In this document: one piece after another, positions 4,695 through 23,491 of the stretch
How positions within the stretch are numbered: position 1 is the first letter of the stretch
How the letters are laid out: every line of letters starts with the position of its first letter
Source: a virus
IMG/VR virus record: IMGVR_UViG_3300009093_000029
Coordinates: 1-23,491 of that record
DNA: 23,491 nucleotides
Strand: one strand, 5' to 3'
Made by a program: the position numbers and the translations under genes
The notes under the pieces: model-generated
What the model saw: the letters and a program-made list of their open reading frames with translations, nothing else
The model's database searches: none
Told to the model about the DNA's origin: nothing

Positions 4695-5429
4695 ATGACC
4701 GATCAGACCGCGCCGTCCGTTGCAACGCTTCCGAACCGGAAAGACTTCACCACGCCTCAGCACATGCTCGACTTCATTGCGGCAAAGGCCGAGCAGCTCG
4801 GCTCGCTGTGGAAGGACGCAGCGCTCGCAATTGCGTGGTGCTGGGACACCGAGGTCAATCACTCGAAGTCGCTGAATCAACTGCTCGCAGAGCATGGGCG
4901 CGCAGACGGCTGGCTTGCCGAAGCCGAGCGCCGACTCGGTGAGCTGGTGAGCAGTCTCGAAAGCAAGTTCCTGCCGGTGGCGACGTGGACCGAGTTTCGC
5001 GCGGAACTCGACTCGAGCTTATCGAAGTGGTGCGAGCAGGCGTTCCAAGCCCTCGAAGATCGCGCGCTCGGTGTCGTGCGGAGCGAGCTCGAGCGGTTCA
5101 AAGCGACGATGGTGCCGGCCGATCCGCCCGAGCCCGAGTCGCCGCCGACACCGCCGGAACCTGAACCGCCGACGGTGCCCGATCCCGCAGCGCCCGAGCC
5201 CACGGCGGAAGCTCGCGCCGCAGAGCACGTCGACCCGCTCTCGCTGGCGCGCGATGCCTTCCCGACGCTCCAGGAGTTCACGCAGATCGGCTACTACGCC
5301 GACACCTACGAGCACCGCAAAGCCGAGTGGGAGGCCCGGAAAGCGGCAGCATCGGCGCCGGCGCCGGAGCCGGAGCCCGCGACGAACGGCGAGGAAAACA
5401 GCCCGGCGGACTCCGCCACTGGCGCCTGA
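4695..5429 (+). CDS. Helical protein with Pro/Glu-rich hinge; last gene of the structural operon
   Basis: A 244-aa protein. Residues 15-138 are predicted helical and coiled-coil-like with many Glu, Leu and Ala. Residues 140-175 form a hinge of Pro-Glu repeats. A second short helical segment follows, and the last 25 residues are Ala, Pro and Glu rich. The overall charge is strongly acidic. The start is ATG at 4695 after an A-rich leader, 12 bases beyond the previous stop. No enzyme motif is visible. It could be a scaffold or assembly protein or an internal virion protein. It is followed by a strong hairpin, consistent with the end of a transcription unit. Confidence 0.75.
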   Translation: MTDQTAPSVATLPNRKDFTTPQHMLDFIAAKAEQLGSLWKDAALAIAWCWDTEVNHSKSLNQLLAEHGRADGWLAEAERRLGELVSSLESKFLPVATWTEFRAELDSSLSKWCEQAFQALEDRALGVVRSELERFKATMVPADPPEPESPPTPPEPEPPTVPDPAAPEPTAEARAAEHVDPLSLARDAFPTLQEFTQIGYYADTYEHRKAEWEARKAAASAPAPEPEPATNGEENSPADSATGA

Positions 5430-6325: not shown

Positions 6326-6537
6326 AGGTCGAGCTCAAGTGCTCGAGCGACTTCATCGGTAGCACCATCGGCTCGTGCCGTCATTGCGGCGCGCCGGTGC
6401 TGAGGGACGATCGGCGCGAGGTGCTCGGGCACCGCGAGCCGACGTGCCGCAAGTTCTTTGCGAACGCGGAGGACGCGCTTTCGTACGAGCACGCGGTGCA
6501 CTCAAACTTCAGCCTCCAGCCGGCGGTGCAACAGTGA
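6322..6537 (+). CDS. Small zinc-ribbon-like protein
   Basis: A 71-aa product from GTG 6322. It contains CRHCG near residue 19 and, about 20 residues later, a His and a Cys (GHREPTC), consistent with one CCHC/CCCH-type zinc site. The C-terminal third is polar. It overlaps the next gene by GTGA. One of a dozen small Cys-rich proteins in this genome. Possible roles include modulating host transcription or nuclease activity; none can be assigned from sequence. Confidence 0.7.
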   Translation: MKVELKCSSDFIGSTIGSCRHCGAPVLRDDRREVLGHREPTCRKFFANAEDALSYEHAVHSNFSLQPAVQQ

Positions 6538-6797
6538 GCGCCCGGAAGCCCTACGAGCCGCCGCGCATCACAGGCCGTGCGGCTCGAGCTCGAGCAGCGA
6601 GGGGCTCGGTGAAGCCGCTCACCGTGCTCCAGCGCTGCGCATGGTGTGGACGCGCAGCGGGCGGCTTCTACTGCATTCAACACAACCAGCGACGCCGCGC
6701 GAACGACGCGCGCCGGCATCGGCTCGAGCAGCTGCGCAGCGATCGCTACGTGCGCGCGGCTCTGTCGTCGAATCGTTTTTCCTCGGGAGGTCAGTGA
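6534..6797 (+). CDS. Basic zinc-finger-like small protein
   Basis: An 87-aa product from GTG 6534 with a very basic N-terminus (many Arg), then CAWCG, an aromatic stretch, and a Cys-x3-His (CIQH) followed by Arg-rich sequence. The C-x2-C...C-x3-H spacing and basic flanks suggest a nucleic-acid-binding zinc finger. It sits directly before the single-stranded DNA-binding protein, whose ribosome site lies inside this gene's last codons, so the two are probably co-translated. Confidence 0.65.
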   Translation: MSARKPYEPPRITGRAARARAARGSVKPLTVLQRCAWCGRAAGGFYCIQHNQRRRANDARRHRLEQLRSDRYVRAALSSNRFSSGGQ

Positions 6798-6799
6798 AC

Positions 6800-7213
6800 A
6801 TGGCTGATGGTCTGAACGTTTGCTTTTTGCTTGGGAACTTGGGCGCCGATCCGGAGCTCCGCATGACGAGCTCGGGCGCCGCGGTGATGAATCTTCGGCT
6901 CGCGACCACGCGCAGTTACTTGGACAAGAACAAGGCGCGGCAGGAAAACACGGAGTGGCACACTGTGGTCGTGTGGGGTCGACGCGCTGAGGGCTTGGCA
7001 AAGATCCTCAAAAAGGGCACGAGGCTCCACGTCACGGGCGAGATTCGCTACGAGCGCTACGAAGACAAAGAGGGCAACGAAAAGTGGCGCACCTCGATCC
7101 ACGCGCAGAACGTGACGCTGTGCGAGCGCGCGCCCGCGGGTTCCAATCCGCGCAACGAATACGGCGACGATGACTTTGTGCCGCCAACCGGCGGCGATGA
7201 CATCCCGTTCTGA
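6800..7213 (+). CDS. ssb: Single-stranded DNA-binding protein (SSB)
   Basis: ATG 6800 is preceded by CGGGAGGT at 6784-6791. The 137-aa product is a standard bacterial or phage SSB with one OB fold: VCFLLGNLGADPEL at residues 7-20, EWHTVVVWGRRAE at 52-64 and LHVTGEIRYERYED near 76-89. A short linker leads to the acidic tail ending DDIPF (133-137), which in this family recruits replication and repair partners. It would coat single strands exposed by rolling-circle replication started by the Rep protein at 9.4-11 kb. Length is shorter than E. coli SSB because the linker is short. Family assignment is secure. Confidence 0.96.
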   Translation: MADGLNVCFLLGNLGADPELRMTSSGAAVMNLRLATTRSYLDKNKARQENTEWHTVVVWGRRAEGLAKILKKGTRLHVTGEIRYERYEDKEGNEKWRTSIHAQNVTLCERAPAGSNPRNEYGDDDFVPPTGGDDIPF

Positions 7214-7226
7214 GGAGGCCAAAAAG

Positions 7227-7844
7227 ATGAGCCATCTACCTTGGATCGAGACGCCGCGAGCCGCGGTGTTTGGTGCGCTGGTGCTCGCGCTGGCGCTGGT
7301 GCTTCTTCGTCGCGCGGCGATCGGCCTGGTGCTGATCGCCGCGTTGTGTTTGCTCGCGACGGGCTGCGGCCCTTCCTTCACTGCGGAGAACAACGATGCC
7401 GATGCCGGACAAGGAAACTATGCGGGGGCTGCTGCTGCTGGACTTGCAGCGGGCGGAGGCGGCGCTTCTGGAGGCGCTGCAACGGGAGGAAAGCCCGGAA
7501 GCAGTGGTGGTCGTTCAAGCGTGGCAGGAGCAACAGCTGCGGGCGCAGCTGGCGCTGGCGCTGGCGGACGCGGAGTGGGAACGGGAGGAGGCGGCACAGG
7601 CGGCACAGCGCCGCAAACGCAAGCGGACTGCCTAGTCGGCTGGCAAGGCTCGAGCTGTGACACGTGCACCGGCGCCGATGCGCCCGACGCCGGCGCGTCG
7701 TGTGCCGAGGTGCTGGACTGCTTTGCCGCGAACCACTGCGGACCGGCGAGCTGCCACTACTGCGAGGCGCCCGACGCCGGCGTCTCCGATCGCGCGGTCG
7801 AGCTCGAGCGGCAGGTGTTCGCCTGCAAGTGCGGTGCGCTGTGA
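7227..7844 (+). CDS. Gly/Ala-rich Cys-rich lipoprotein
   Basis: ATG 7227 follows GAGGAGG at 7212-7218. The 205-aa product has one hydrophobic run (residues 12-27), two Arg, and a second hydrophobic run ending LLATGC (Cys47), a lipoprotein signal. A GTG at 7299 would give the signal alone. Residues 60-130 are Gly/Ala/Ser low-complexity; the last 70 residues hold many Cys in pairs (CDTC, CHYC, CKCG). This layout is familiar from secreted lipoproteins of Myxococcota. It is expected to be anchored in a membrane facing the periplasm or outside. In a phage it could act in superinfection exclusion or lysis (Rz1-like); this is speculative. Its low-complexity part overlaps another open frame with better codon use. 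Confidence 0.75.
   Translation: MSHLPWIETPRAAVFGALVLALALVLLRRAAIGLVLIAALCLLATGCGPSFTAENNDADAGQGNYAGAAAAGLAAGGGGASGGAATGGKPGSSGGRSSVAGATAAGAAGAGAGGRGVGTGGGGTGGTAPQTQADCLVGWQGSSCDTCTGADAPDAGASCAEVLDCFAANHCGPASCHYCEAPDAGVSDRAVELERQVFACKCGAL
7396..7635 (+). CDS. Candidate overlapping gene inside the lipoprotein gene
   Basis: A 79-aa frame, +1 relative to the lipoprotein, starting ATG 7396 with GGAGAA at 7385-7390. The product is a charged helix rich in Leu, Ala, Glu and Gln ending in a basic KRKR tail. Its third codon positions are nearly all G or C, whereas the lipoprotein frame over the same bases uses many GGA, GCT and GCA codons unlike its flanks. This suggests the inner frame is under selection. 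A caution is that shifting Gly/Ala repeats by one base naturally produces Glu/Ala/Leu codons. There is no membrane segment, so it is not an obvious spanin. Confidence 0.35.
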   Translation: MPMPDKETMRGLLLLDLQRAEAALLEALQREESPEAVVVVQAWQEQQLRAQLALALADAEWEREEAAQAAQRRKRKRTA

Positions 7845-8750: not shown

Positions 8751-8785
8751 TTCGGCGGGTTGCCGCCCGCCGAAAGGCTTTTCGC
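8751..8785 (+). terminator. Terminator-like hairpin
   Basis: A perfect 9-bp stem, TTCGGCGGG (8751-8759) with CCCGCCGAA (8766-8774), 6-nt loop, followed by AGGCTTTTC. The short T run after the stem is consistent with intrinsic termination at the end of the SSB-to-8722 group. The gap 8723-8803 holds nothing else clear, apart from a TATTAAT at 8738-8744 that could serve as a -10 box. Confidence 0.6.
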
Positions 8786-8803
8786 ATCTGCCCATCACGA
8801 CGA

Positions 8804-9052
8804 ATGCCCAGACAGTCTGCCACACGCGCGCGCGCGCTCCAACGCACATCCGCCTACCAGCTTGAGCTGTTTCACGGCCGACACCGCGAGAAGCGAGCTC
8901 CGAAGCTTTCCAAGGGCGCGGTTTGTTCACGCTGTGACCGAAAGGCATCGCAGCTCGTGCGCGTGGGGGAGGGCTACGCCGCGCGCTGTTCCTGGCACAC
9001 GACGGACCGGCTGCCGTCGGACCTGGCTCGCGCGGTCAGGAGGCGCGCGTGA
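8804..9052 (+). CDS. Small zinc-binding-type protein
   Basis: An 82-aa product from ATG 8804. The N-terminus is basic; then CSRCDRK near residue 41, and a Cys and a His (ARCSWH) about 20 residues later, giving a CCCH-type site, then a basic tail. The ribosome site is weak. It is the first gene after the terminator-like hairpin. Confidence 0.6.
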   Translation: MPRQSATRARALQRTSAYQLELFHGRHREKRAPKLSKGAVCSRCDRKASQLVRVGEGYAARCSWHTTDRLPSDLARAVRRRA

Positions 9053-9237
9053 TGGCTCGCGAGCGGCCGCGCGTCGCATGGCGCTGGAACGCCCAGGCGA
9101 TCTGGCAAGGCCGGCTCTTCGGCTGCCCCGAGCTCGTGCGCGTGTGGTTCGTGGTGCCGGGCCGAGCACCTCGAAAAATGGGGCGCTTCGAGTCGACGTT
9201 GGCCGCAAACGACGTTTTACCGTGGGGGCGACCCTGA
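9052..9237 (+). CDS. Small basic protein, unknown
   Basis: A 61-aa product. AGGAGG at 9038-9043 is well placed for ATG 9052; a GTG at 9049 would give the four-base overlap usual here. The protein is Arg- and Trp-rich (WRWNAQAIW) with a beta-type second half. Its pattern of short strands with WFVV resembles small phage proteins of unknown role. It ends just before the repeat-rich region I propose as the origin. Confidence 0.55.
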   Translation: MARERPRVAWRWNAQAIWQGRLFGCPELVRVWFVVPGRAPRKMGRFESTLAANDVLPWGRP

Positions 9238-9431
9238 GCGCCGACCCGCGCTCCTATGTCCGCTCCTCGCCGAAATCACTCGCTCGCTCCAAAAACAGGC
9301 CGAAGGGCCAACAATACCCGGGTAAAAAGGGCTCCGATCGGCGCGCAGCGCCGCCTTCCCTTGATACCGAGGGCACAACCCAACGGGTTGGCCCTCGGAG
9401 TAGGCATAACTCGACGGACCAACGATTTCGG
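9238..9431. other. Repeat-rich non-coding region, origin candidate
   Basis: Between the 61-aa gene and the preferred Rep start lie several inverted repeats: a 10-bp palindrome TACCCGGGTA (9315-9324); CGGCGC-GCA-GCGCCG (9339-9353); a large hairpin at 9367-9398; and CCAAC/GTTGG at 9419-9435. Together with the 26-bp palindrome at 9520-9545, this is the densest set of inverted repeats in the window. Position directly upstream of a HUH Rep is typical of rolling-circle origins. I cannot point to the nick site from sequence alone. The Rep frame stays open across this stretch, so coding cannot be excluded. Confidence 0.5.
9367..9398. repeat. Large hairpin upstream of rep
   Basis: CCGAGGGC (9367-9374) pairs with GCCCTCGG (9391-9398) and CAACCC (9376-9381) with GGGTTG (9385-9390); one A is bulged and the loop is AAC. 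This gives 14 paired bases with a three-base loop. There is no T run on either side, so a terminator is less likely than a Rep-recognised or single-strand-initiation structure. Confidence 0.7.
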
Positions 9432-10958
9432 TTGGTTAGCTCGCGCGTTGCGTGGCTCGATCAGCTTGAGTCGCTCACTTCGGTTGTAAGAGAACAGCGA
9501 GCGCGGAAACTTCGCGAGCGCGGTCGAGCGCTAGCGCTCGACCGCCGGAGACTCTGGCGCGAGTCGGGTTTGGCCGAACGGCAGGAACGCAATGGACGTC
9601 CGATCGCCGACACCGAAGGCGGTGACGAAACCTGGGAGCTCGGGCAGTCGAAAACCCTTGTCGCTGTCGAGGCGCGTGCTCAGGCACGCGCGCGCGGCGA
9701 GCTCGCCGCCGGCCCCTCCGTTGAGCGCGACCCGCCGTCGACGCAATGGCACGAGTCGCGCGCGCGAAACAAGATCAACCTGTTCGATCGCGTTGCTTCG
9801 TGCGGGTCAGAAGAGTCGACGCAGATCACTTTGGTGTGTGGTGGCTGCGGAGAGAAGACGCCGATCGATGTTGGTTGCGATGCGCGTTGGTTCTGTGCGC
9901 GCTGCCGCCCTCGGCCAGTGAAGAAAGTCCAAGGTGACTTTCGACCGAAGCGCACCGGATTATTGACCGTTGCTGCTCGAGTCGGTCTTACCCGTCGGCG
10001 GCAACGAAAGGGCGAGCGCTGGGGTGAGCGTTTGCTGACCTTGACCCTGCCCCATCGCGGCACTCCGGTTGAGCGCATCCGCCGACTTCGAAAGACGCGG
10101 CACCGGTTCTTTCGTCTGCTCCGAGACGAGTTGCGTGCTGAGCTCGAGCGGATTCCAAGCGGCGTGTTTGTGGACGATCTGCCGGCTGCCAGCACGCCGC
10201 GCGGTGTCTCTCAGTCCCGTGTGGAGAGGACTGGTCGCGAGCTTTCGCTCTGGGAGTTTTTTACTTACTACAGCGTGCTCGAGTGGACGCCTGGTGAGGA
10301 CGGCCTTGGGCATCCGCACTTTCACGTGTGGATGTTTTCGCGCTTCATAGCGCACGATCGGCTTCGAGAGCTTTGGCAGCGCGCTTACTTCTCTGTGCTG
10401 CGTGCCGAGTGCCCGATCGGGCCAATTGAGGAAGTGACGCTCGTGATCGATGTGCGGGCGGTGCACGGAGACCCTTCGCACGAGCTCATCAAGTATCTCA
10501 CCAAGGATTGGGAGGTCACTCCCGACGGTGCGCATCGAGCGTTGCCGGAGGTGTACGCTCAGGTTTATGCCGAGTGCGATGGGACGCGGCTTCGGCAGTC
10601 GAGTGCTGGTTTCGCTGATTGGGGTGTAGGGAAGCACCGCGCCTGCCCGTGCTGCTGGCATGAAGGCGCGAACGGCTGGGCGCGGATCGAGATCAGTCAC
10701 GCGCTCGAGCACCATAAAGATCCGATCGGCGTCAAGCCCCCCGACCCGAGTCGCGACACTCGGGCGCCGCTGGCCGCGGCGTCTCGTGCAACTGAGCTGA
10801 GGAACGAGTGGGAGAAACAGCGTGACGCGGAATGGGCCGCGGGCGCTGCGCTTCGCGTTCTTCGTGCACGAGTGCGCAAGGCTTTGGGGATTGCCCCCAA
10901 GTCGGAAGGTTCAGCACAGCGGCAAGGTGGCCAGCTGTTCTTAGGAGAAAGACGATGA
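9432..10958 (+). CDS. rep: HUH-family rolling-circle replication initiator
   Basis: The frame is open from 8760, but the first part overlaps better genes. I choose TTG 9432 (508 aa); GTG 9222 and GTG 9834 are alternatives. A Cys4 zinc module (CGGC ... CARC) starts near 9837. Motif 1 is LLTLTLPH near 10035. Motif 2 is HPHFH at 10311-10325, the metal-binding HUH core. Motif 3 is YLTK at 10494-10505 with one catalytic Tyr. A second Cys/His cluster (CPCCWHEG) follows. Such enzymes nick one strand at the origin, stay linked to the 5' end through Tyr, and religate after a round of synthesis. It needs a host helicase, and SSB is encoded nearby. The start is uncertain; the family is clear. Confidence 0.88.
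   Translation: MVSSRVAWLDQLESLTSVVREQRARKLRERGRALALDRRRLWRESGLAERQERNGRPIADTEGGDETWELGQSKTLVAVEARAQARARGELAAGPSVERDPPSTQWHESRARNKINLFDRVASCGSEESTQITLVCGGCGEKTPIDVGCDARWFCARCRPRPVKKVQGDFRPKRTGLLTVAARVGLTRRRQRKGERWGERLLTLTLPHRGTPVERIRRLRKTRHRFFRLLRDELRAELERIPSGVFVDDLPAASTPRGVSQSRVERTGRELSLWEFFTYYSVLEWTPGEDGLGHPHFHVWMFSRFIAHDRLRELWQRAYFSVLRAECPIGPIEEVTLVIDVRAVHGDPSHELIKYLTKDWEVTPDGAHRALPEVYAQVYAECDGTRLRQSSAGFADWGVGKHRACPCCWHEGANGWARIEISHALEHHKDPIGVKPPDPSRDTRAPLAAASRATELRNEWEKQRDAEWAAGAALRVLRARVRKALGIAPKSEGSAQRQGGQLFLGERR
9520..9545. repeat. 26-bp perfect palindrome
   Basis: Bases 9520-9532 are the exact reverse complement of 9533-9545, centred on CT|AG, with no spacer. It lies inside the N-terminal coding part of rep. 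Such a long perfect palindrome can extrude as a cruciform or bind a dimeric protein. It may be the Rep binding or nicking site or an autoregulatory operator. Confidence 0.8.
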
Positions 10959-11191
10959 CGAACGAGCAATGGGAAAAAGCGCCCGAGGTTGAGGCGGTCG
11001 GCTGCTACTGCTCCGATCACATGTCGGCGGGGATACCGTGCCCCGGCCCGTGCCCGAATGCGCCGCAGCGCCGCACCGATCCGGCACCGCCGGCGTGGGA
11101 AGAAGTGACTGAGGTGAGCTGCATCATCTGCGGCGTGAAGGATGGCGGCCACGACGCGGCGTGCCCGCGTCAGGAAGCGATCGCGCCGTGA
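10955..11191 (+). CDS. Small protein with two Cys-rich sites
   Basis: A 78-aa product with TAGGAGAAA (10942-10950) before ATG 10955 and an ATGA overlap with rep. Two Cys clusters: CYCSDH with CPGPC in the first half, and CIICG ... HDAACP in the second, which fit two metal sites. Translational coupling to rep suggests a replication or regulatory partner. No family recognised. Confidence 0.7.
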   Translation: MTNEQWEKAPEVEAVGCYCSDHMSAGIPCPGPCPNAPQRRTDPAPPAWEEVTEVSCIICGVKDGGHDAACPRQEAIAP

Positions 11192-11370
11192 CCCCGGCGC
11201 GGGCGGCGTGTGTCGAGCTGCTCACGGCGATTCGCAACGTGCGCAGCGATCCGAGCCCCGAGAACCTGCGGAAGCTCGGAGTGCAAGCCGGCGGCCTGAT
11301 GCAGATCGCGGTGCGGCTCGAAGATGAGCTTGAACGCGAGCTCGAGCGTAACCGGGCGGTGGCGTCGTGA
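11188..11370 (+). CDS. Small helical protein
   Basis: A 60-aa product from GTG 11188. It is mostly alpha-helical and acidic near the end (LEDELERELERN), with no Cys pair and no membrane segment. GTGA overlaps on both sides. Possibly a small dimeric coiled-coil regulator. Function unknown. Confidence 0.6.
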   Translation: MTPARAACVELLTAIRNVRSDPSPENLRKLGVQAGGLMQIAVRLEDELERELERNRAVAS

Positions 11371-15698: not shown

Positions 15699-15742
15699 CA
15701 CCCCACGAGTCGCATACACAGTCCCATCACAAAGGCAAGAAA

Positions 15743-16255
15743 ATGAACGCAGCTTCTCTCGCCGATCGCATGCTCGGCAGCGTCGGCGATCCCAACATCC
15801 AACCCCACTACGTGGGCGATCCCAACATCCGACCGCGCTACGTGGGCGCGCCGGTGAACCTGGTCCAAGGCAACCCCAACGCGCCGATCGACTACTCGGA
15901 GCAGACCTACGTCGACGGAAACGTCACGTGGTTCGGCTTGGGCACGCAGGTGATTGCGGCGGGCGCTACGGCGGTCGTTGACAAGAAGCCGCTGCGGCCG
16001 ATGACGCCTCAAAGCTTTCGCATGCCGTCGACGACGCAGGGCTTGCTCGTGTCCCAGATCTCGATCTCGGGCACGAACATCTTTGCGGGTCAGGACGGCA
16101 CGCCTCAGGAGTTCTTCTCCGAGGTGAGCACGGCGCCGCAGCTGGTGTTTCCGACAATCAACGAGGCATCGGGCGTGCAAATCACGCTCATCAATCCGAC
16201 GGCAGCAAACATCACGTTTAGCGGCGCCTTCTACGGCACCGCGCTGCGTCGCTGA
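15743..16255 (+). CDS. Beta-sandwich protein, candidate major capsid protein
   Basis: A 170-aa product from ATG 15743, preceded by AAAGGCAAG. The N-terminus has two 10-residue repeats (GDPNIxPxYV). From residue 50 on it reads as one beta-sandwich: a GLGTQVIAAGAT strand, a PQSFRMPS strand, VSQISISGTNIFAG, a TPQEFFSE turn, FPTINEASGVQITLINPT and a final FYGTALRR. I recall similar single-domain proteins from uncharacterised phages, where N-rich strands and a PxxFSE turn recur. Position behind a strong hairpin suggests high expression. Capsid assignment is inferred, and the paralogues at 557 and 1207 are competing candidates. Confidence 0.78.
   Translation: MNAASLADRMLGSVGDPNIQPHYVGDPNIRPRYVGAPVNLVQGNPNAPIDYSEQTYVDGNVTWFGLGTQVIAAGATAVVDKKPLRPMTPQSFRMPSTTQGLLVSQISISGTNIFAGQDGTPQEFFSEVSTAPQLVFPTINEASGVQITLINPTAANITFSGAFYGTALRR
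15785..15844 (+). repeat. Tandem repeat of two 30-bp units
   Basis: Two adjacent 30-base units (15785-15814 and 15815-15844) with only a few differences, encoding GDPNI-x-P-x-YV twice in the N-terminal arm of the beta-sandwich protein; a partial third copy (VGAPVN) follows. The repeats probably form an extended docking arm. Confidence 0.85.
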
Positions 16256-16259
16256 GCTC

Positions 16260-16691
16260 GTGAACATCTGCACGGACATCGGCAAGGAGTGGCCAGACGA
16301 GTACGTCGCCTGGTTCGTGAAGTGCGCGATCGAAGGGTTCGCGCGCGGCTGCTTGCCGATGGCCCGTGTGTGGAGACTGCCGCCGCTCTACCAAAGCGGA
16401 ATTCGTTTTCAGCCCGAGCCCAACCACGGGACAGGTTCTGAGGAATTCGCGCTGCCCGCGCTCACTTTCGAGCGCAAGTGGGGCGACTGCGACGACCTCG
16501 TAATTTATCGCCTGTGGGAGCTCTGGTGCGCTGGCGAACCCGCTACGTGCGCGGTGATCTTCATCGACAACCAAGAGCACGTCCGCGTCAGGCGCGGACC
16601 GCAGCATCGCCCACGAGGGCACACCAACATTTGCCAGTGCGAGGGGTGCATTGAAGACCCCGCCGTCATCTGTGGAGCTCGAGCAGCATGA
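16260..16691 (+). CDS. Transglutaminase/papain-like fold protein
   Basis: A 143-aa product from GTG 16260. The segment KWGDCDDLVIYRLWELWCAGEPA at 73-95 matches the nucleophile helix of transglutaminase-like proteins, with Cys77 as candidate nucleophile. His107 (EHVRV) and Asp133 (IEDPA) fit the remaining triad. Phage proteins with this pattern occur near structural genes and may process or crosslink virion proteins. Several extra Cys (CQCEGC) lie near the C-terminus. The triad order is right, but activity is unproven. ATGA overlap with the next gene. Confidence 0.7.
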   Translation: MNICTDIGKEWPDEYVAWFVKCAIEGFARGCLPMARVWRLPPLYQSGIRFQPEPNHGTGSEEFALPALTFERKWGDCDDLVIYRLWELWCAGEPATCAVIFIDNQEHVRVRRGPQHRPRGHTNICQCEGCIEDPAVICGARAA

Positions 16692-17563
16692 ACACCGGAG
16701 CCAAAGTAGTTTTGGGCCTCCTCGCCGTTGGCGGGATTACGGCCCTCGTTTTCATGAGCGGCGAGCAGAAGGCGAACGCCGCACCGGGCGGACCGCCGGT
16801 CAAACCGCCGATCGTGCCGTCGCCTCCAGGAACGACGCCGATCCCGCCGTCGGGTGGCGTGGTCGTGGTGCCGAGTGGTGCGCCCGACTTTCCGCCGCTC
16901 ACGCAACCGCCGATCGTCGCGCCTCCGCCTTCGTCGAACATCCCGATCCCAGGCGGCGGTAGCATCAACCCGGGCACGGGCACCGCAACCATTCCGGGCC
17001 TCGGCACGGTGACGGTTCCGCCGCTGCCTGGAGCAGGCGCACCGAGCGCGGCGCCCGGGCTGCCCTCGTTGCCGATCCCGGTACCGGCGCCGACGCAGGT
17101 GCTGCCGGGACTCACGATCACGCCGGGGCCTGCGCCCGCACCAAGCGCGCCGCCTCAGTCGGCAGCGGAGCAGCCGACGACGGCGCCGGCAGACACCATC
17201 GCGACGGTGAGCGCGATGCTCGCTCGAGAGCAGTCGCCGCACTGGCGAATCATCCCCGAGCCGACTCTCAAGGCGTGGCAGGCCGCGCGCGGTCTCGTGG
17301 CCGATGGCGACTTCGGCATGGGCACTGCGCTGAAGATGGCGCAGGAGATCGGTACGCTGCCAATCATTCGCGGTTGGCCGAAAGGCAGCTACCTCGGCGA
17401 CGGCAAGCTCGAGAACTACAAGGCGAGCCTCGTCCAGATCGCGAACAGCGCGCCCGAGCCGCGCCGGAGTCAGCTCATGGCCGCGAGCGTACGCGAGCAA
17501 GGCCAGGGCTACGGCAAGACCGAAAAACCGATCGCAACCCTCATCACGCTCCAGGACGCGTAA
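16688..17563 (+). CDS. Membrane-anchored Pro-rich protein with peptidoglycan-binding-like domain
   Basis: A 291-aa product. Residues 1-33 are an anchor or signal (AKVVLGLLAV...ALVFM...ANA) nearly the same as that of the 22867 gene. Residues 34-165 are a Pro/Gly/Ser linker. The C-terminal domain includes LKAWQAARGLVADGDFG near residue 195, similar to the peptidoglycan-binding fold (Q-x-x-x-GL-x-x-DG-x-FG). It may span from the virion or inner membrane through the periplasm to the wall, helping genome entry. Enzyme residues are not visible. Confidence 0.78.
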   Translation: MNTGAKVVLGLLAVGGITALVFMSGEQKANAAPGGPPVKPPIVPSPPGTTPIPPSGGVVVVPSGAPDFPPLTQPPIVAPPPSSNIPIPGGGSINPGTGTATIPGLGTVTVPPLPGAGAPSAAPGLPSLPIPVPAPTQVLPGLTITPGPAPAPSAPPQSAAEQPTTAPADTIATVSAMLAREQSPHWRIIPEPTLKAWQAARGLVADGDFGMGTALKMAQEIGTLPIIRGWPKGSYLGDGKLENYKASLVQIANSAPEPRRSQLMAASVREQGQGYGKTEKPIATLITLQDA

Positions 17564-17567
17564 CCCA

Positions 17568-18971
17568 ATGACGATCCACACGCTTCGCGGGCTCGGCTGG
17601 GACTGGCGCCAAAACGGCGTGCTGCTCACCGTGCAGATCGACGATCAAAAGATCCAGGTGCTCGTGCCCTTGGATCGCGTCTTCCACGAGTTCTCGAAAG
17701 AGCTCGCGGCGGTGGGCTGTCCGCTCGAGCCGGCAGTCGGAGGCTACGTGACGGTGTCGGGCCTGTTCGGCTCGATCGCTCACGCGGTGAAGGGCGTCAC
17801 GCACGCGGTCACGCACAACGCGATCACGAACGCCGCGACCAGCGTTGCCAAGACAGCGACGAACTACGCAGAGCACGCGGTCGCAAACACGATCGGGCGA
17901 GTGCCAGTGCTGGGCGGTCTCGCAAACACCGCCATGAGCCTTGCGACGCTGCCGGCGAACGTGGTCAATCAGATCGCGAGCGGCGGTCGGCTCGACCAGG
18001 TGGCGCTGAGCTCGCTCAAATCGGCGCTGAAAGATGTGAAGGCGATCGCGCCGTACGCGCAGACCGTGCTGAGCATGGTTCCCGGAGTCGGGCAGGGGCT
18101 CTCCGGAGCGATCGGCGCGAGCATCGCGCTCGCTCAAGGGCAGTCGATCACGGATGCGCTGATGAGCGGAGTGAAGGGCGCACTGCCCGGCGGCGCGCTC
18201 GCGCAAGCTGCGTTCCAGATCGCAGCAGACGCAGCAGCGGGTCGACCCATCACCACGATCGCGCTCGACGCGCTGCCGGTTTCGCCGCAAGCGAAGCAGG
18301 CACTATCGCAAGGCGTGATGGCCGCGCGCGATCTAGCAAGCGGAAAAAACGTCTCGCAGTCGCTGCTCGATCACGCGCTGCACGCGCTACCGCCCGACGC
18401 GCAAAAGGCAGTGCAGATCGGGACTGCACTCGCGCACGCGCGGAGCCTCCAGTCGGCGGCGGGCACAATCGCGAGAGTGGCGCTGCCGGCAAGCGCGCAA
18501 GCCGCGGCCGCGGCCGCGGGACTGGCGTCGACCTACAAGGCGGGGATGGCCGCTGCGCAAGCAGTCAAGCTGCTCCCGGCGCACGTGCCACCGCCTCCGC
18601 ACCTGCTCGAGGCAATGCACAGAGGTATCGCCGCGAAGGCAACGATGGCCAAGGCGATCTCGATGGCGCAGCAGGGGCACCACGAAGCACGGCAGATCGT
18701 CGGCGCGATGACCGGACAAGTAGGGCCGGGCGTGCACCGCGGCTTCAAGCCACGTTACCACTCGCAGGGAGCGAGCTCGGCCGTGGTGAGCGGGCCGATC
18801 ATGCACCACCATCACCGCCACGCAGGCGGCATCCACGCTCGTTTCGAAAGCCACGTGGGGTGGCCGATCGATGTGCGCGCGTTTCGCGAGCTCGGGCGCA
18901 ACGGCACCTCAGGGCCGGCGCCCGAGCTCTCGTTCATGCAACGCCCGGGCAGCGTGTTCGCGTACCGCTGA
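17568..18971 (+). CDS. Large Ala/Gly-rich protein with hydrophobic helices and a His cluster
   Basis: A 467-aa product from ATG 17568. Residues 1-62 form a small beta/alpha head. Residues 63-350 are Ala, Gly, Val and Gln rich amphipathic or membrane-active helices (GLFGSIAHAVKGVTHAV and similar), a type I recall from phage penetration or internal proteins of unknown family. Near residue 412 there is MHHHHRHAGG, a natural metal-binding cluster. The C-terminus is a polar folded segment. It could form a pore or line the virion membrane for DNA delivery. Function inferred. Confidence 0.75.
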   Translation: MTIHTLRGLGWDWRQNGVLLTVQIDDQKIQVLVPLDRVFHEFSKELAAVGCPLEPAVGGYVTVSGLFGSIAHAVKGVTHAVTHNAITNAATSVAKTATNYAEHAVANTIGRVPVLGGLANTAMSLATLPANVVNQIASGGRLDQVALSSLKSALKDVKAIAPYAQTVLSMVPGVGQGLSGAIGASIALAQGQSITDALMSGVKGALPGGALAQAAFQIAADAAAGRPITTIALDALPVSPQAKQALSQGVMAARDLASGKNVSQSLLDHALHALPPDAQKAVQIGTALAHARSLQSAAGTIARVALPASAQAAAAAAGLASTYKAGMAAAQAVKLLPAHVPPPPHLLEAMHRGIAAKATMAKAISMAQQGHHEARQIVGAMTGQVGPGVHRGFKPRYHSQGASSAVVSGPIMHHHHRHAGGIHARFESHVGWPIDVRAFRELGRNGTSGPAPELSFMQRPGSVFAYR

Positions 18972-18980
18972 GGTGAGCTC

Positions 18981-19556
18981 GTGAACGGACCGAGAAACCC
19001 GTCGAATCCGATCCAGCAGCCGCCCGGCAGTCAGCCGTCGGGTGGCAGCGGTGCGGGTTACGTGCACGGCATTGGCCAGTCGCAAACGTGGAAGGCGGGC
19101 GAGAGCGACAGTCGTCCTGTGCTGGACACGGTGCGTGCGGATTGTCTCTGGCGCGTCGAAGTGTTCGGCACGAACGTGACGCTCACGGTGACGTGGGGAA
19201 CGATCAAACAGATCCAGCTCAACGACGTGCAGTGCCCGTTCGCAATGAGCATGCCCGGGCAGTGCACGATTTATGCGAAGCCGGTCAAAGTAGACGGGCT
19301 CTACGTCGGCGGAGAGGTGCTTTGCGCCGTCACGCCGGTGAGCTCGCCGGGGACTCAATTCGCGCGTGTGCTGGTCAGTGGAGCCCAGCCGCTGCCCCGA
19401 GAAGCCATGCGCTTTACCTCACTCGTCGCAGGCTCGACGGTGCTGCTCGGAAGCAGTGCCTTCGGTCCGGTGACGGTCGACAAGTTCGAAACCGTGGACC
19501 TCATTGCCGGCTCGAAACTCACGAACGGGACCGGTTACCTGGAGTTTGAAGCATGA
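18981..19556 (+). CDS. Beta-rich structural-type protein
   Basis: A 191-aa product from GTG 18981 with GAGGTGA just upstream. A Pro/Gly/Ser/Asn N-terminal arm of about 35 residues is followed by a beta-sandwich type domain (WRVEVFGTNVTLTVTWGT, FAMSMPGQCTIYAKPV). A flexible arm plus single beta domain is common in minor capsid and vertex proteins. No family recognised. ATGA overlap with the next gene. Confidence 0.72.
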   Translation: MNGPRNPSNPIQQPPGSQPSGGSGAGYVHGIGQSQTWKAGESDSRPVLDTVRADCLWRVEVFGTNVTLTVTWGTIKQIQLNDVQCPFAMSMPGQCTIYAKPVKVDGLYVGGEVLCAVTPVSSPGTQFARVLVSGAQPLPREAMRFTSLVAGSTVLLGSSAFGPVTVDKFETVDLIAGSKLTNGTGYLEFEA

Positions 19557-19879
19557 GCACTGCGCTAATCAAACAGCTCGAAGCCGCGCAAAAACGAGCC
19601 CGCAAAAAGGGCAAGAAGAAAGCCAAGAAAAAGGCGAAGCGCAAGGCGTCGAAAAAGCGCCGATCGCCAACCAAGGCTCAGATCATGGCCGAGCTGCGTC
19701 GTGAGATGCAGATCGCGACCTTCGGCCGTCCGGTGCGAAAGAAGGCGCACCGCAAGCCCAAAAAGAAGGCCAAGAAAAAGGCCACCAAGAAGAAAGCCAA
19801 GAAGCTCTCGAGAGCTGAGTTTCTCGAACGCATGGCCAAGGGCCGCGCGAAAGCCAAGCGCGCACGGAGCCGCAAGTGA
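19553..19879 (+). CDS. Lys/Arg-rich nucleoprotein-like protein
   Basis: A 108-aa product in which close to half of the residues are Lys or Arg. Two Lys/Ala tracts (about 14-40 and 62-83) resemble histone H1-like tails, separated by a short helix (AQIMAELRREMQIATFG). It would bind nucleic acid without sequence specificity. Within the virion-type operon, a role in condensing the genome during packaging is the best inference; ribosomal or host-chromatin binding is possible. Confidence 0.8.
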   Translation: MSTALIKQLEAAQKRARKKGKKKAKKKAKRKASKKRRSPTKAQIMAELRREMQIATFGRPVRKKAHRKPKKKAKKKATKKKAKKLSRAEFLERMAKGRAKAKRARSRK

Positions 19880-20184
19880 GCAAAAACGAGCTCGATCGCT
19901 ACTACGCGGCGTTGCGTCGAAGCGAGATGATCGGCCGGACGTTGGTGTGGTGCGCCATCGTCGCAGGCTTGATCGGAACCGGGCTCTGCATGGGCGTCGC
20001 GTGTAGCGCGCCGGCGCCGGCGCCGAAGCTGGCAAAAGCCGAAGGTGAGCTCTGCGCCGCGCGTGCGGCGTGGAAGGTGTTCGCCGCGGCAAACAACCTC
20101 GCGCCCGCTCCTGGATCGGAGCGCGCGAAACTCGAGGCAGCTGAAGACGCCCTGTGCGCCGTGCGCGCGGAGTCCAACCCATGA
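19876..20184 (+). CDS. Small single-pass membrane protein
   Basis: A 102-aa product from GTG 19876. Residues 1-20 are charged, 21-43 form a membrane helix (LVWCAIVAGLIGTGLCMGVA), followed by CSAPAPAP, which could be read as a weak lipobox, and a helical C-terminal part with two Cys. Likely anchored in the inner or virion membrane. Confidence 0.68.
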   Translation: MSKNELDRYYAALRRSEMIGRTLVWCAIVAGLIGTGLCMGVACSAPAPAPKLAKAEGELCAARAAWKVFAAANNLAPAPGSERAKLEAAEDALCAVRAESNP

Positions 20185-20552
20185 ACCTCGCCCCCATCGC
20201 AACGCAGATCGCACCATTCCTGGTCGATCAGTACGTACAAAGCCAAGTCGCCGCAGCGGAAGCCCGCGGCCTGGCCGGAGACGCTCTCGCCGAAGTGGAG
20301 CACAACGCGCGCGAGTTCGCGATCACGGTGTCCCAGGTGGTGACCGCGTCGCTCGAAAAGCAGGAAGACCCGGAAGCGAAGAGCAGATCGCGCTTCGTTG
20401 CGCACATCGCGGCCGACTTGCTGCGCGGCTGGCCCGGAGAGCCGACCGCAGCAGCAGCTCGAGAGGCGGTCGCGATCGCCAAAACGCTGGTGGACGAAGC
20501 CGAGCGCGTCTGCCGACCTCCCGCGCGCAGCGCGTCCCCGCCGGAGGCTTGA
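20181..20552 (+). CDS. Small helical protein
   Basis: A 123-aa product from ATG 20181, mostly alpha-helical with many Ala and Glu, ending in a Pro/Ala tail. The N-terminal segment (LAPIATQIAPFLVDQYVQSQVAAAE) is moderately hydrophobic. No motif. It closes the sub-operon before a 122-base gap. Confidence 0.7.
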   Translation: MNLAPIATQIAPFLVDQYVQSQVAAAEARGLAGDALAEVEHNAREFAITVSQVVTASLEKQEDPEAKSRSRFVAHIAADLLRGWPGEPTAAAAREAVAIAKTLVDEAERVCRPPARSASPPEA

Positions 20553-20610
20553 GCGCGGAGCGCGGAGCCGCTGCCGTCGAAGCATCGCACGTCGCCACTA
20601 GTTGAATGTG

Positions 20611-20634
20611 CCTCGGAAGATTCCGTCACCGAGG
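20611..20634 (+). terminator. Hairpin before the cell-wall hydrolase
   Basis: CCTCGG (20611-20616) pairs with CCGAGG (20629-20634) around a 12-base loop; a pyrimidine-rich stretch (CCTTTTCCCTTG) follows after six bases. It lies in the gap 20553-20674. It may be a weak terminator or attenuator. Confidence 0.4.
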
Positions 20635-20674
20635 ATGAGACCTTTTCCCTTGTTTGCCTCTCTCGCCCATCACC

Positions 20675-21811
20675 ATGTCTGCCGTTCTGTCGTTCCTCAA
20701 CCTGCCGGGGCTCAGTGCTCGCGAGAGTGCTGAGCCAGGGTTCCTTGCTGCGCTTGCCGGCGTAGCAGAGCGCCTCGCGCTCGACCCGAGCTACATCGCC
20801 GCGGTGATGTCGCTCGAGTCGGGCGTGAACCCTCAGGCGGTCAACGCACACGGCGGAGCGACCGGCCTGATTCAGTTCATGCCGGCGACGGCGGCGGCGC
20901 TCGGCACGAGCGTCGAAGCCCTCCGCGGCATGAACGCGACCGAGCAGCTCGAATACGTCGAGCGGTACTTCCGAATTGCTGGGCGCGCGATTCGGAACGA
21001 CACGCCCGGCGACTACTACATGAGCACGTTCCTGCCGGCGTTCGTCGGCAAGCCGAGTGACACGGTGCTCGCGGTCAAGGGGGAGCCGATCTACGACGAA
21101 AACGCGGGCCTCGACGCTGACCACGACGGTCAGCTCACCGTGGGGGATGTCTGGACGAAGATCGACAATGCCGTAGCGGCAGCGCGCACGCGCCCGCTGC
21201 TGGTGGTCGATCCATCGAATACTAAAAAAAAAGCGCCGGGGGCGGGGGCAACTCCGCCCCCGGCATCGCCCTCGCAAGCGTCGGCGTTGCCGCCTTCATC
21301 TTCTGGGGCGTCCTCCGCACCAAGCCCGGGAGGCGGCGTGGTTGACGATCCGGAAACGAAGCGCGAGCTCGCGGTATTCGCCGCGAGCGTCGAGCTCGCC
21401 GAGGTGGAAGCCAAGGTGTGGAGTGCCGAGCGGCTCCGCGCCTACTGGCGCGGTGCGCTCGGCCTCGACGCCGACGCCTCGGTCGACGGCTACCTGAACG
21501 CGGCGTGGTGCGGCGTGTTCGTGCTGTGGTGCCTGCACGAGGGCGGCATCGCTCCGGACTTGCACTGGCACATCGGTGCGGGCTTCGTCGGGCCGGCCAA
21601 GCTCGAGCTGACGAAAACGCCGAAGCCGGGCGACGTGGCTTACAACGCGCACCTCCAGCACCACGCGATCGTGGTCGCGGTTGAGGGCGAGGACGTGCAC
21701 ACGCTCGACGGAAACCAGGGCTGGACGACGCCGATCAAAGCGCGCACGCGAAAGCTCATCGACTGGACTGCGTTCTATTCAATCGAGCGGTTGCTCACGG
21801 AGGGACCGTGA
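20675..21811 (+). CDS. Two-domain cell-wall hydrolase: lytic transglycosylase plus CHAP
   Basis: A 378-aa product from ATG 20675 (a TTG at 20654 is less likely). Residues 32-125 are an SLT-type transglycosylase: Glu48 in SLESG, then GLIQFMP at 64-70. An EF-hand-like loop (Asp147 to Asp158) could bind calcium. A Lys3/Pro/Ser linker covers 184-221. Residues 240-370 are CHAP-like: Cys279 in AWCG and His329 or His330 (LQHHAIVV). The first domain cleaves glycan strands, the second peptide bonds. Within the linker the coding bias shifts to the -1 frame, so this may be two genes or a frameshifted pair. It lies amid structural genes, so it could serve entry, release or both. Confidence 0.88.
   Translation: MSAVLSFLNLPGLSARESAEPGFLAALAGVAERLALDPSYIAAVMSLESGVNPQAVNAHGGATGLIQFMPATAAALGTSVEALRGMNATEQLEYVERYFRIAGRAIRNDTPGDYYMSTFLPAFVGKPSDTVLAVKGEPIYDENAGLDADHDGQLTVGDVWTKIDNAVAAARTRPLLVVDPSNTKKKAPGAGATPPPASPSQASALPPSSSGASSAPSPGGGVVDDPETKRELAVFAASVELAEVEAKVWSAERLRAYWRGALGLDADASVDGYLNAAWCGVFVLWCLHEGGIAPDLHWHIGAGFVGPAKLELTKTPKPGDVAYNAHLQHHAIVVAVEGEDVHTLDGNQGWTTPIKARTRKLIDWTAFYSIERLLTEGP
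21224..21264 (+). promoter_or_regulatory. A9 slippery run plus GNRA-capped hairpin (frameshift candidate)
   Basis: Nine A (21224-21232) read as three Lys codons, then two bases later an 11-bp perfect stem (GCCGGGGGCGG at 21235-21245 with CCGCCCCCGGC at 21254-21264). A G-U and a G-C pair extend it to a GCAA tetraloop. A slip into the -1 frame gives 37 residues including a membrane helix and stops at 21343-21345. Ribosomal -1 frameshifting or polymerase slippage would make a 223-aa membrane-anchored transglycosylase. Confidence 0.65.
21338..21811 (+). CDS. CHAP domain as a possible separate product
   Basis: GTG 21338 is in the same frame as the full hydrolase and is preceded by GGGAGG at 21328-21333, a good ribosome site inside a linker where none is needed. 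It would give a 157-aa stand-alone CHAP-type hydrolase (Cys at local residue 58, His near 108 or 109). Its start overlaps the -1 frame stop at 21343-21345, as for a coupled gene pair. This is an internal start, not an additional locus. Confidence 0.5.
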   Translation: MVDDPETKRELAVFAASVELAEVEAKVWSAERLRAYWRGALGLDADASVDGYLNAAWCGVFVLWCLHEGGIAPDLHWHIGAGFVGPAKLELTKTPKPGDVAYNAHLQHHAIVVAVEGEDVHTLDGNQGWTTPIKARTRKLIDWTAFYSIERLLTEGP

Positions 21812-22167
21812 CGCACTTTACCGACGAAGAGCCGACGAAGAATCACCTCGGGCGCGTGGCGCTGCGTTCGTCGGCGCCGCCAAGAGAAGAGGAGCGGCCG
21901 ATCCATGACCTGTACGAGCTGGTCGGGAAGATCATGGCTTCGGAGCAAAGCACTCGGCAGGACGTGCAGACGCTCACGCGAGAGGTGCGGCAGCTGACGC
22001 TCTCTCTCGAGCAAGATCGGCCGGCGATCGCAAAGGATGCAAGCACCTCGGCGGCAAAGCACACGTCCAACCGCATGGCGATCTTGTTCTCCGCGCTCGT
22101 GGTCATTTACGAGCAGGCGGCGCCCGCGCTGCATTGGATCGCGGAACTTTCGCGGGGGCACCGATGA
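21808..22167 (+). CDS. Coiled-coil protein with C-terminal membrane helix (XhlA-like layout)
   Basis: A 119-aa product from GTG 21808. Residues 33-80 form a heptad-rich coiled coil (DLYELVGKI ... TLTREVRQLTLSLEQ), and 89-112 a membrane helix. The layout resembles XhlA-type holin helpers and its place after the cell-wall hydrolase fits a lysis role. A virion membrane role is an alternative. Confidence 0.72.
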   Translation: MTHFTDEEPTKNHLGRVALRSSAPPREEERPIHDLYELVGKIMASEQSTRQDVQTLTREVRQLTLSLEQDRPAIAKDASTSAAKHTSNRMAILFSALVVIYEQAAPALHWIAELSRGHR

Positions 22168-22271
22168 AACAGTGGGAGCGAGTCGTGCTGGCGGCGGCGT
22201 TGGTGGCCGGCGCGGTCGCGCTGTTCGCGAAGAGCGCGGGCGCGGCGCCAGGGCCAACGGTGAAGCGATGA
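22164..22271 (+). CDS. 35-aa membrane microprotein
   Basis: ATG 22164 to TGA 22271, with ATGA overlaps at both ends. The product is a charged N-terminus (KQWER), a hydrophobic helix, then AKSAGAAPGP. The helix and Ala-x-Ala-Pro end resemble the N-terminal anchors of the 16688 and 22867 proteins, so it looks like a bare version of that anchor. Holin or virion membrane peptide are options. Confidence 0.6.
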   Translation: MKQWERVVLAAALVAGAVALFAKSAGAAPGPTVKR

Positions 22272-22858
22272 CGGGCAGCACGCAAGGCTTCGCGCCGGTG
22301 TTCGTCGGCTGGAACGTGTGGAACGTCTACCAGGCAGCCGATCCGGACGAGAGTTTGCTCGGGGCCATCTGGCACGCCGGTATCAGCCAAGATCAGCTCT
22401 TGAAGCTGTGGGTGGAAAACCAGCTGGAAGACAACGCGCCGGGCGTGAACGTGTCCGATCCGGTGAACCCGAACCCCGAGCACTTTCGCGGTGACGAAGT
22501 GCAGATCATTCCGTCGACCGCGGGGCTGAAGGTCGCGGTGGGTCGTGAGTCGATTCCCGATCTCGCTGGCGCGTTGCAAGTCGGTAACGAGGGAAGCGCT
22601 GCGCTGCTGCGCTCCGTGCGCTTCTATAACCGCGGCCGGCAAACCATGTTGCCCTGGCCGCACGATAGAAACTTCGTGCTCGACGCCGTCTACATGCCGG
22701 ACCCGAGCAACGCGATCACCAACTCGCCCGCGCCGAAAACCGCCGGAGGCGAGCTCGATGCGGCGGGCAAGGCGCTCGGGCACGCACTCGAAACCGCAGC
22801 GTGGGTGCTCGGGGGCGCCGTCGCGCTCTACGCAATTGTCCGAGCCACAAGGAAGTGA
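22268..22858 (+). CDS. Tail-anchored virion-type protein
   Basis: A 196-aa product from ATG 22268. Residues 1-165 are a soluble domain with aromatic-rich strands (FVGWNVWNVYQAADPDE, LLKLWVENQLED). Residues 172-193 are a C-terminal membrane helix (AWVLGGAVALYAIV) followed by RATRK, so the bulk faces away from the basic side. No family recognised. Confidence 0.72.
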   Translation: MTGSTQGFAPVFVGWNVWNVYQAADPDESLLGAIWHAGISQDQLLKLWVENQLEDNAPGVNVSDPVNPNPEHFRGDEVQIIPSTAGLKVAVGRESIPDLAGALQVGNEGSAALLRSVRFYNRGRQTMLPWPHDRNFVLDAVYMPDPSNAITNSPAPKTAGGELDAAGKALGHALETAAWVLGGAVALYAIVRATRK

Positions 22859-22866
22859 GAACCACC

Positions 22867-23271
22867 ATGGGAGCAGGAAAAGTCGTTTTGTTGGGCGCGG
22901 TCGCTGCGGCGAGCGCGCTGCTGTTCATGCACCACGCGAACGCATCGCCGGCGCCGGCGAAGAGCGGTCTGCCGGGCGGCTGGACCCCGCCTGACGGTGC
23001 CGTCTTTCGCACGCTGCCCGTTGGGCCCGACAACCCGACGGGCGTGCCGCTCGACGTGTGGCGCTGGGACAACAACACCGGCGGCGGAGCTCAGCCCGGG
23101 CACATTGTGCTGGTCGTGAGCCACAACAACCCGCAAAACGACTTTGCGGCGTTCTTCGTGCCGCAACCCACGAGCAACACCCAAAGCCCGACGCCGGCGC
23201 TCCTCGCGGCGGGCACTACTCAAACGTCCGGTCTCATCGCTCAGGCGATCGTTGCGGGGCTCGTAAGCTGA
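22867..23271 (+). CDS. Protein with N-terminal membrane anchor shared with the 16688 gene
   Basis: A 134-aa product from ATG 22867. Residues 1-26 (GAGKVVLLGAV...LLFMHHANA) match the anchor of the 16688 protein closely: KVVL, then Ala/Gly, an (A/L)LxFM segment, and ANA just before Pro/Ser-rich sequence. ANA could be a signal peptidase site. The rest is a small beta domain with WRWDN and GHIVLVVSHNNP segments. Likely membrane-associated or exported virion protein. Confidence 0.75.
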   Translation: MGAGKVVLLGAVAAASALLFMHHANASPAPAKSGLPGGWTPPDGAVFRTLPVGPDNPTGVPLDVWRWDNNTGGGAQPGHIVLVVSHNNPQNDFAAFFVPQPTSNTQSPTPALLAAGTTQTSGLIAQAIVAGLVS

Positions 23272-23491
23272 ATGGCGCTCCGCGAATGGGCACAGCGGCA
23301 GTTCACGCTCCCCGAGGGCGCGAACGCCGTGAAGACGGTTCAGCTGACCGCAGAGGGCGCGATCTGGGAGACGTGGCACGCGCCCTTTCCCGAGCTCGAA
23401 ACCTTCCTGACCGAAGCTGACAACGTCGTGCGGGTCTTCGCCGAAGAGTGCCCTAAGCGCCGCATTCCGATCCTGTACACCGCGATCGATC
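23272..23491 (+). CDS. Coiled-coil structural-type protein, N-terminal part (continues at 3-560)
   Basis: ATG 23272 follows directly after the previous TGA. This part codes for the first 73 residues; the reading continues in frame through the circle join to give 218 aa in all. The segment contains short strands and an acidic, aromatic stretch (WETWHAPFPELETFL). It is a full gene only when the window is closed into a circle. Confidence 0.88.
   Translation, partial: MALREWAQRQFTLPEGANAVKTVQLTAEGAIWETWHAPFPELETFLTEADNVVRVFAEECPKRRIPILYTAID
23369..23491. repeat. Terminal direct repeat, right copy
   Basis: Exact copy of 1-123. See the left copy for interpretation. Genes within it are counted once. 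Confidence 0.93.

Follow-up and report, generated by a model that had tools for sequence, protein, structure and literature searches.

The window, by which we mean the whole stretch of DNA analysed here, is a circular phage contig of 23,491 bases (virus record IMGVR_UViG_3300009093_000029). Its ends share 123 identical bases (1-123 and 23369-23491), and exactly 123 identical bases are found at the ends of the genome of its relative L004 as well; in both genomes this identity may be an assembler k-mer effect rather than biology. On the plus strand of the window lies a gene for a cell wall hydrolase, in which a run of nine A is followed by two readable frames. Its features are given below. All membrane helices (TM) in this study were called by hydropathy alone.

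20675..21223, plus strand: lytic transglycosylase (LT, SLT-type) domain, common to both predicted products; matches to Pfam PF01464, 9udh, L004 and FLiP gp14
21224..21232, plus strand: A9, the putative slippage run, read as AAA AAA AAA in frame 0; also present in L001 and L004, and as A9 or A10 in related LT genes
21232..21345, plus strand: frame -1 extension with Gly/Ser linker, membrane helix, basic end and TGA (21343-21345); from translation
21233..21337, plus strand: frame 0 Pro/Ala/Ser/Gly linker, connecting LT to CHAP in the fusion product; L004 has a shorter linker of like kind
21235..21264, plus strand: 13-bp stem capped by GCAA, 2 nt 3' of A9, which with T9 opposite is also shaped like a terminator on the minus strand; from folding, not conserved
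21262..21315, plus strand: predicted membrane helix of 18 residues in frame -1, GIALASVGVAAFIFWGVL; from hydropathy only
21328..21340, plus strand: GGGAGG (21328-21333) and GTG (21338), a possible separate CHAP start that spans the -1 stop; from sequence
21338..21811, plus strand: CHAP-like part in frame 0, the end of the fused product; PF05257 match and conserved Cys, His and Asn

The LT domain matches Pfam PF01464 with an E-value of 1.2e-9 (38.1 bits, above the curated cut-off of 21.3) and the solved relative 9udh with an E-value of 9.7e-24. From there, frame 0 stays open through the linker into the second domain and stops at 21811. We call this second domain CHAP-like, since its match to Pfam PF05257 (E 2.8e-4) scores 21.8 bits and thus falls below the curated cut-off of 26.0. 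The Cys, His and Asn that are catalytic in CHAP domains are all aligned in four CHAP-like proteins, namely those of the window, of L004, of a second CHAP gene in L004 and of the relative L005.

The initial annotation had proposed that the -1 frame behind the nine A encodes a membrane helix and a basic end, with a stop at 21343, and re-reading the sequence reproduces this exactly. The frame -1 peptide after the run is KK-SAGGGGNSAPGIALASVGVAAFIFWGVLRTKPGRRRG. Its mean Kyte-Doolittle hydropathy over 17 residues is 2.32, compared to 0.24 in frame 0 and -0.18 in frame +1. Moreover, the G+C content of the overlap at codon positions 1, 2 and 3 is 0.69, 0.69 and 0.89 in frame -1, and 0.70, 0.89 and 0.68 in frame 0, while the flanking regions show 0.69, 0.48 and 0.81 (LT part) and 0.68, 0.47 and 0.88 (CHAP part). 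The third position is therefore as high as is normal here when the overlap is read in frame -1, since 0.89 resembles the flanking parts, and the codon-position G+C fits coding in frame -1 better than coding in frame 0. The claim that the -1 frame has the richer third positions (0.89 versus 0.68) thus holds for the overlap, and the ribosome site and GTG said to lie across the -1 stop are indeed present. In L004 an ATG adjoins the -1 stop, and a clear ribosome site was not seen there.

The A9 is the sole A run of eight or more in the genome of the window, and the same is true for the A9 in the genome of L004; the number of A runs of nine or more expected per genome is 0.16. The run has the length that characterizes genes with transcriptional slippage (about nine or more A or T inside a gene). 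Indeed, runs of nine A are used for transcriptional slippage in bacteria, with A9 of Thermus thermophilus dnaX as a precedent (PMC1088944). The run also contains the slippery heptamer A_AAA_AAA in the correct phase for a -1 shift (21226-21232).

Two close relatives bear on whether the arrangement is kept. L001, a contig of another metagenome entry, differs from the window by one mismatch in 4,598 bases and likewise has A9. The genome of L004 is circular, 24.5 kb long and syntenic with the window, and its LT is 69% identical. It keeps A9 at the same place, and the DNA downstream has diverged so that the length of the overlap differs. Its frame -1 encodes a TM of different sequence, KKKPTASGAPVLALGSAAVVGWLLWRARRRHR*, and the helix has a basic end (PVLALGSAAVVGWLLWRARRRHR), and its frame 0 continues into a CHAP-like domain that has the Cys, His and Asn. 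Hence the run and both downstream frames, including the -1 frame on whose conservation the initial annotation had made its proposal depend, are conserved in L004, and related LT genes keep the run together with the -1 TM. L004 has another CHAP gene too, separate from the first, whose product bears a hydrophobic segment in its N-terminal part (10751-11350, reverse-complemented coordinates). When we searched for further relatives of the window phage using its other proteins and a DNA pattern, only L004 and L001 were returned.

We gathered LT relatives by protein similarity alone and then scanned them for runs. In many prophage-like loci of Bacteroidota, and in some viral contigs, A9 or A10 comes shortly after the LT domain; in these slippery relatives frame 0 ends about 0-45 codons past the run and the helix is in frame -1. 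Of the 229 LT hits left after dereplication, 19 show, at the LT end and ahead of the stop in frame 0, a run of at least nine (A9 or A10). A TM follows in frame -1 in 17 of the 19 and in frame +1 in none (0/19); the other two are L194 (A10), which has the helix in frame 0, and L358, which is without a helix. L004 is alone among the 17 in that its frame-0 stretch inside the CHAP part is hydrophobic too. The control rates, taken from 781 positions in TM-free LT genes, were 3.7% for frame -1 and 3.2% for frame +1; the binomial probability of 17 out of 19 at the control rate is 8e-23, a value that serves as a guide only, the members being related. Genomes retrieved later provided seven new runs, six of which are followed by a TM-like segment in frame -1 (marginal in L423, 1.40). 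The remaining one is the A11 of L421 with a TM in frame 0. Because their helix is in frame 0, slippage in L421 (A11) and L194 (A10) would give the soluble form.

Within the 17 loci, which amount to 139.7 kb, there are two additional A runs of at least nine, compared to 17 at the LT end. A second A9, at 5112, lies in a KKKK stretch of the next gene in L144 and L293, two of the three Runella-type loci. For the Runella trio, pN/pS is 0.34-0.67 in the -1 frame and 0.08-0.11 in the LT body; since the signal in the -1 frame is weaker than in the LT body, it lends mild support only. An even draw of 395 Bacteroidota genomes returned no new member, and narrower searches by family and order did yield members. 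The slippery state requires eight changes on the LT tree, at least six of them on well-supported branches, and the window pair lies far from the Bacteroidota members. The eight changes imply either an early origin of the slippery state with frequent losses or several independent gains, and the position of the window pair apart from the others means that the pattern across this pair and the Bacteroidota members may be convergent.

Relatives without the run carry the TM in frame. They include L005, several viral contigs and gp14 of Flavobacterium phage FLiP, and they show that the helix is a genuine part of this enzyme. In L005, LT-TM and CHAP are separate genes. Moreover, Spirosomataceae loci that have no A run (L402-L409, L412 and L416) contain a soluble LT gene and an LT gene with a C-terminal helix in tandem on the same strand, as counted within the retrieved genome loci, which spanned about 1.5 kb on each side of the LT. 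The in-frame TM relatives and the tandem pairs suggest that both forms are useful and that a single gene could supply both by slippage.

Our main reading, to which we assign a probability of roughly 75%, is that the gene is recoded at A9 to yield a soluble LT-CHAP and a membrane-anchored LT. Expressed as templated, it would specify a soluble wall hydrolase of two domains in the order LT-linker-CHAP (20675-21811). Some expression events would include an additional A, or a -1 shift to the same effect, after which frame -1 would be read and an LT with a C-terminal membrane helix (20675-21345) produced. The direction is consistent, in that an extra A or a -1 shift would give the anchored enzyme. 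The switch between an anchored LT and an LT-CHAP fusion, as originally envisaged, is thus retained with respect to A9, the -1 TM and the frame-0 CHAP, which are kept in L004, and the design is repeated in many LT genes; the part assigned to the hairpin is not retained. The run, the two frames, their conservation and their recurrence are visible directly in the sequence, and from them we infer that both products are made; what is said here of their ratio, the slip level and their roles is conditional in the same way. As for the step involved, slippage of RNA polymerase on the A run would be the likelier one and -1 slippage of the ribosome the less likely one, and both may occur. We favour the transcriptional over the ribosomal step because the runs are 9-10 A long and the structure is not conserved.

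Programmed -1 ribosomal frameshifting, in which tandem lysine tRNAs would slip on A_AAA_AAA, or on T_AAA_AAA located 5 nt before the stem, with help from the 13-bp stem, is the strongest of the other explanations, even though we consider it rather unlikely. Both heptamers are in the list of frameshift heptamers in PMC3711429, and the first of them is intact in the run. The GNRA-capped stem that had been described two bases after the run is present: it has 13 pairs (11 Watson-Crick, one G-U and one G-C), a GCAA loop and a folding energy of -33.4 kcal/mol, and is far stronger than in shuffled sequence (z -5.5). However, it begins just 2 nt past the run, and a conserved stimulatory structure at the usual distance was not found. 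No comparable stem exists at the same place in L004 or in the other tested family members, and stems 5' of the run are not consistent among the tested members either, which speaks against the hairpin as a general part of the device. In addition, runs of 9-10 A are longer than ribosomal shifting needs. The hairpin is real and particular to this phage, where it is possibly a local addition to slippage. Given this strong hairpin and the intact A_AAA_AAA, the window phage may use ribosomal frameshifting.

Recoding that serves two products has also to be weighed against a tolerated frameshift, in which LT-TM would be the sole useful product and slippage would rescue a gene whose run has drifted out of frame. 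In the Bacteroidota members the frame-0 tails are short and not conserved, and in members other than the window pair frame 0 is therefore perhaps just a tolerated by-product. Rescue should, however, allow the +1 frame too, yet the TM is in +1 in 0 cases versus 17 in -1; in the window pair frame 0 enters a conserved enzyme domain, and some relatives hold separate soluble and anchored LT genes. We think it improbable.

Somewhat less probable still is phase variation, whereby the run would change its length in the DNA between phage generations, so that different lineages would make different products and no switch would take place inside a cell. Replication tends to slip on long homopolymers, and LT genes with A10 (L194) or A11 (L421) and a TM in frame 0 do exist. 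In contrast, run length is constant inside the sets of close relatives, which are the window, L001 and L004 (A9), L144, L145 and L293 (A10), and L218 and L310 (A9).

The stem and the A run could, with low probability, also be an intrinsic terminator of minus-strand transcription. Read on the minus strand, a 12-pair stem is followed by a T run, and this is the best of eight terminator-like sites found; but chance alone predicts eight sites of this kind, the surroundings showed no plausible gene on the minus strand, and L004 lacks the stem yet keeps A9. Least tenable is an assembly or consensus error that hides a true A10 and separate overlapping genes for LT-TM and CHAP, the wrong homopolymer count also raised in the initial annotation: the overlap of the -1 stop with a GTG that has a ribosome site does resemble coupled genes, and LT-TM and CHAP are separate in L005, but since A9 is present in the second contig L001 and in the diverged L004, with both frames kept, neither such an error nor a chance overlap explains the pattern, and the same offset is seen in many unrelated assemblies, two Runella isolates among them.

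Returning to recoding at A9, the LT-TM product would most likely be the counterpart of FLiP gp14, a membrane-anchored virion LT used at entry, and the soluble product would most likely serve lysis. According to PMC13269007, gp14 is a structural protein of the FLiP virion, and FLiP is described in PMC7654751 as having an internal membrane. Around the LT gene of the window (16688-23271) there are several small proteins with one hydrophobic segment each, which would suit a phage that has a membrane. A capsid protein was not identified. For the protein encoded at 15731-16252, a capsid candidate, the structure model was of unusably low quality (pLDDT 35). No window protein matched the capsid proteins of FLiP or PhiCjT23 in phmmer searches, which a remote fold match could escape, so that the Finnlakeviridae MCP was not found, and besides LT no window protein matched any FLiP protein. 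Elsewhere in the window, a Rep-like protein (8760-10958), whose Rep_1 and zinc-binding matches are weak, and an SSB-like protein (6458-7213) suggest rolling-circle replication. Furthermore, the neighbouring genes 557-1138 and 1162-1806 are paralogue-like, both matching one L004 protein (6911-7516, reverse-complemented coordinates).

Taken more broadly, and with somewhat less confidence than for the locus itself, the data suggest a homopolymer switch that diverged phages and prophage-like elements have kept in no fewer than two distant groups. It would supply a soluble and an anchored wall enzyme from one gene, a task for which related elements have two tandem genes, and in the window the soluble form would have gained a second catalytic domain within the same overlapping DNA. 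If this is true, slippage determines how much of the wall hydrolase is anchored and how much is free in phages with many membrane proteins, and a single gene links virion entry and lysis. In such genes the anchored product escapes standard annotation, because frame 0 either stops shortly after the run or continues into another domain. Moreover, with its slippery, in-frame and duplicated versions the gene family offers natural controls.

Among the papers searched, we found none that joins transcriptional slippage, bacteriophage and lytic transglycosylase. The terms 'lytic transglycosylase' and 'ribosomal frameshift' co-occur in passing in the texts searched, in neither title nor abstract. The switch is not mentioned in the searched parts of the FLiP-2, PhiCjT23 and double-jelly-roll virus papers or of the GeneTack main text, and a cluster in the GeneTack supplement could contain it.

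Several known systems resemble the one proposed here. FLiP gp14 of the Finnlakeviridae belongs to the same LT family (profile E 1.7e-45, window E 2.3e-21) and has a C-terminal membrane helix. In gp14, however, the helix is in frame, whereas in the window it is in frame -1, and FLiP has neither an A run nor a CHAP. T. thermophilus dnaX (PMC1088944) likewise has an A9 on the coding strand, and there the mRNAs vary in run length and one gene gives two C-termini. Its shifted frames soon end the protein, whereas in the window a shift would add a membrane anchor and frame 0 would provide a second enzymatic domain. In slippage genes of IS elements and of type III secretion (PMC1088944, PMC5009743), a second C-terminus likewise results from A runs of about 8-10, but these are other genes, and a switch of a wall hydrolase or of a membrane anchor was not found described. 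Poly-A transcriptional frameshifting also yields two length variants of one protein in Citrobacter rodentium tssM (PMC4256274), an interrupted secretion gene rather than a phage enzyme with alternative tails. Mechanisms of this kind are thus known from dnaX, from IS elements and from secretion genes; what appears to be new is the gene, the switch of the anchor and its spread.
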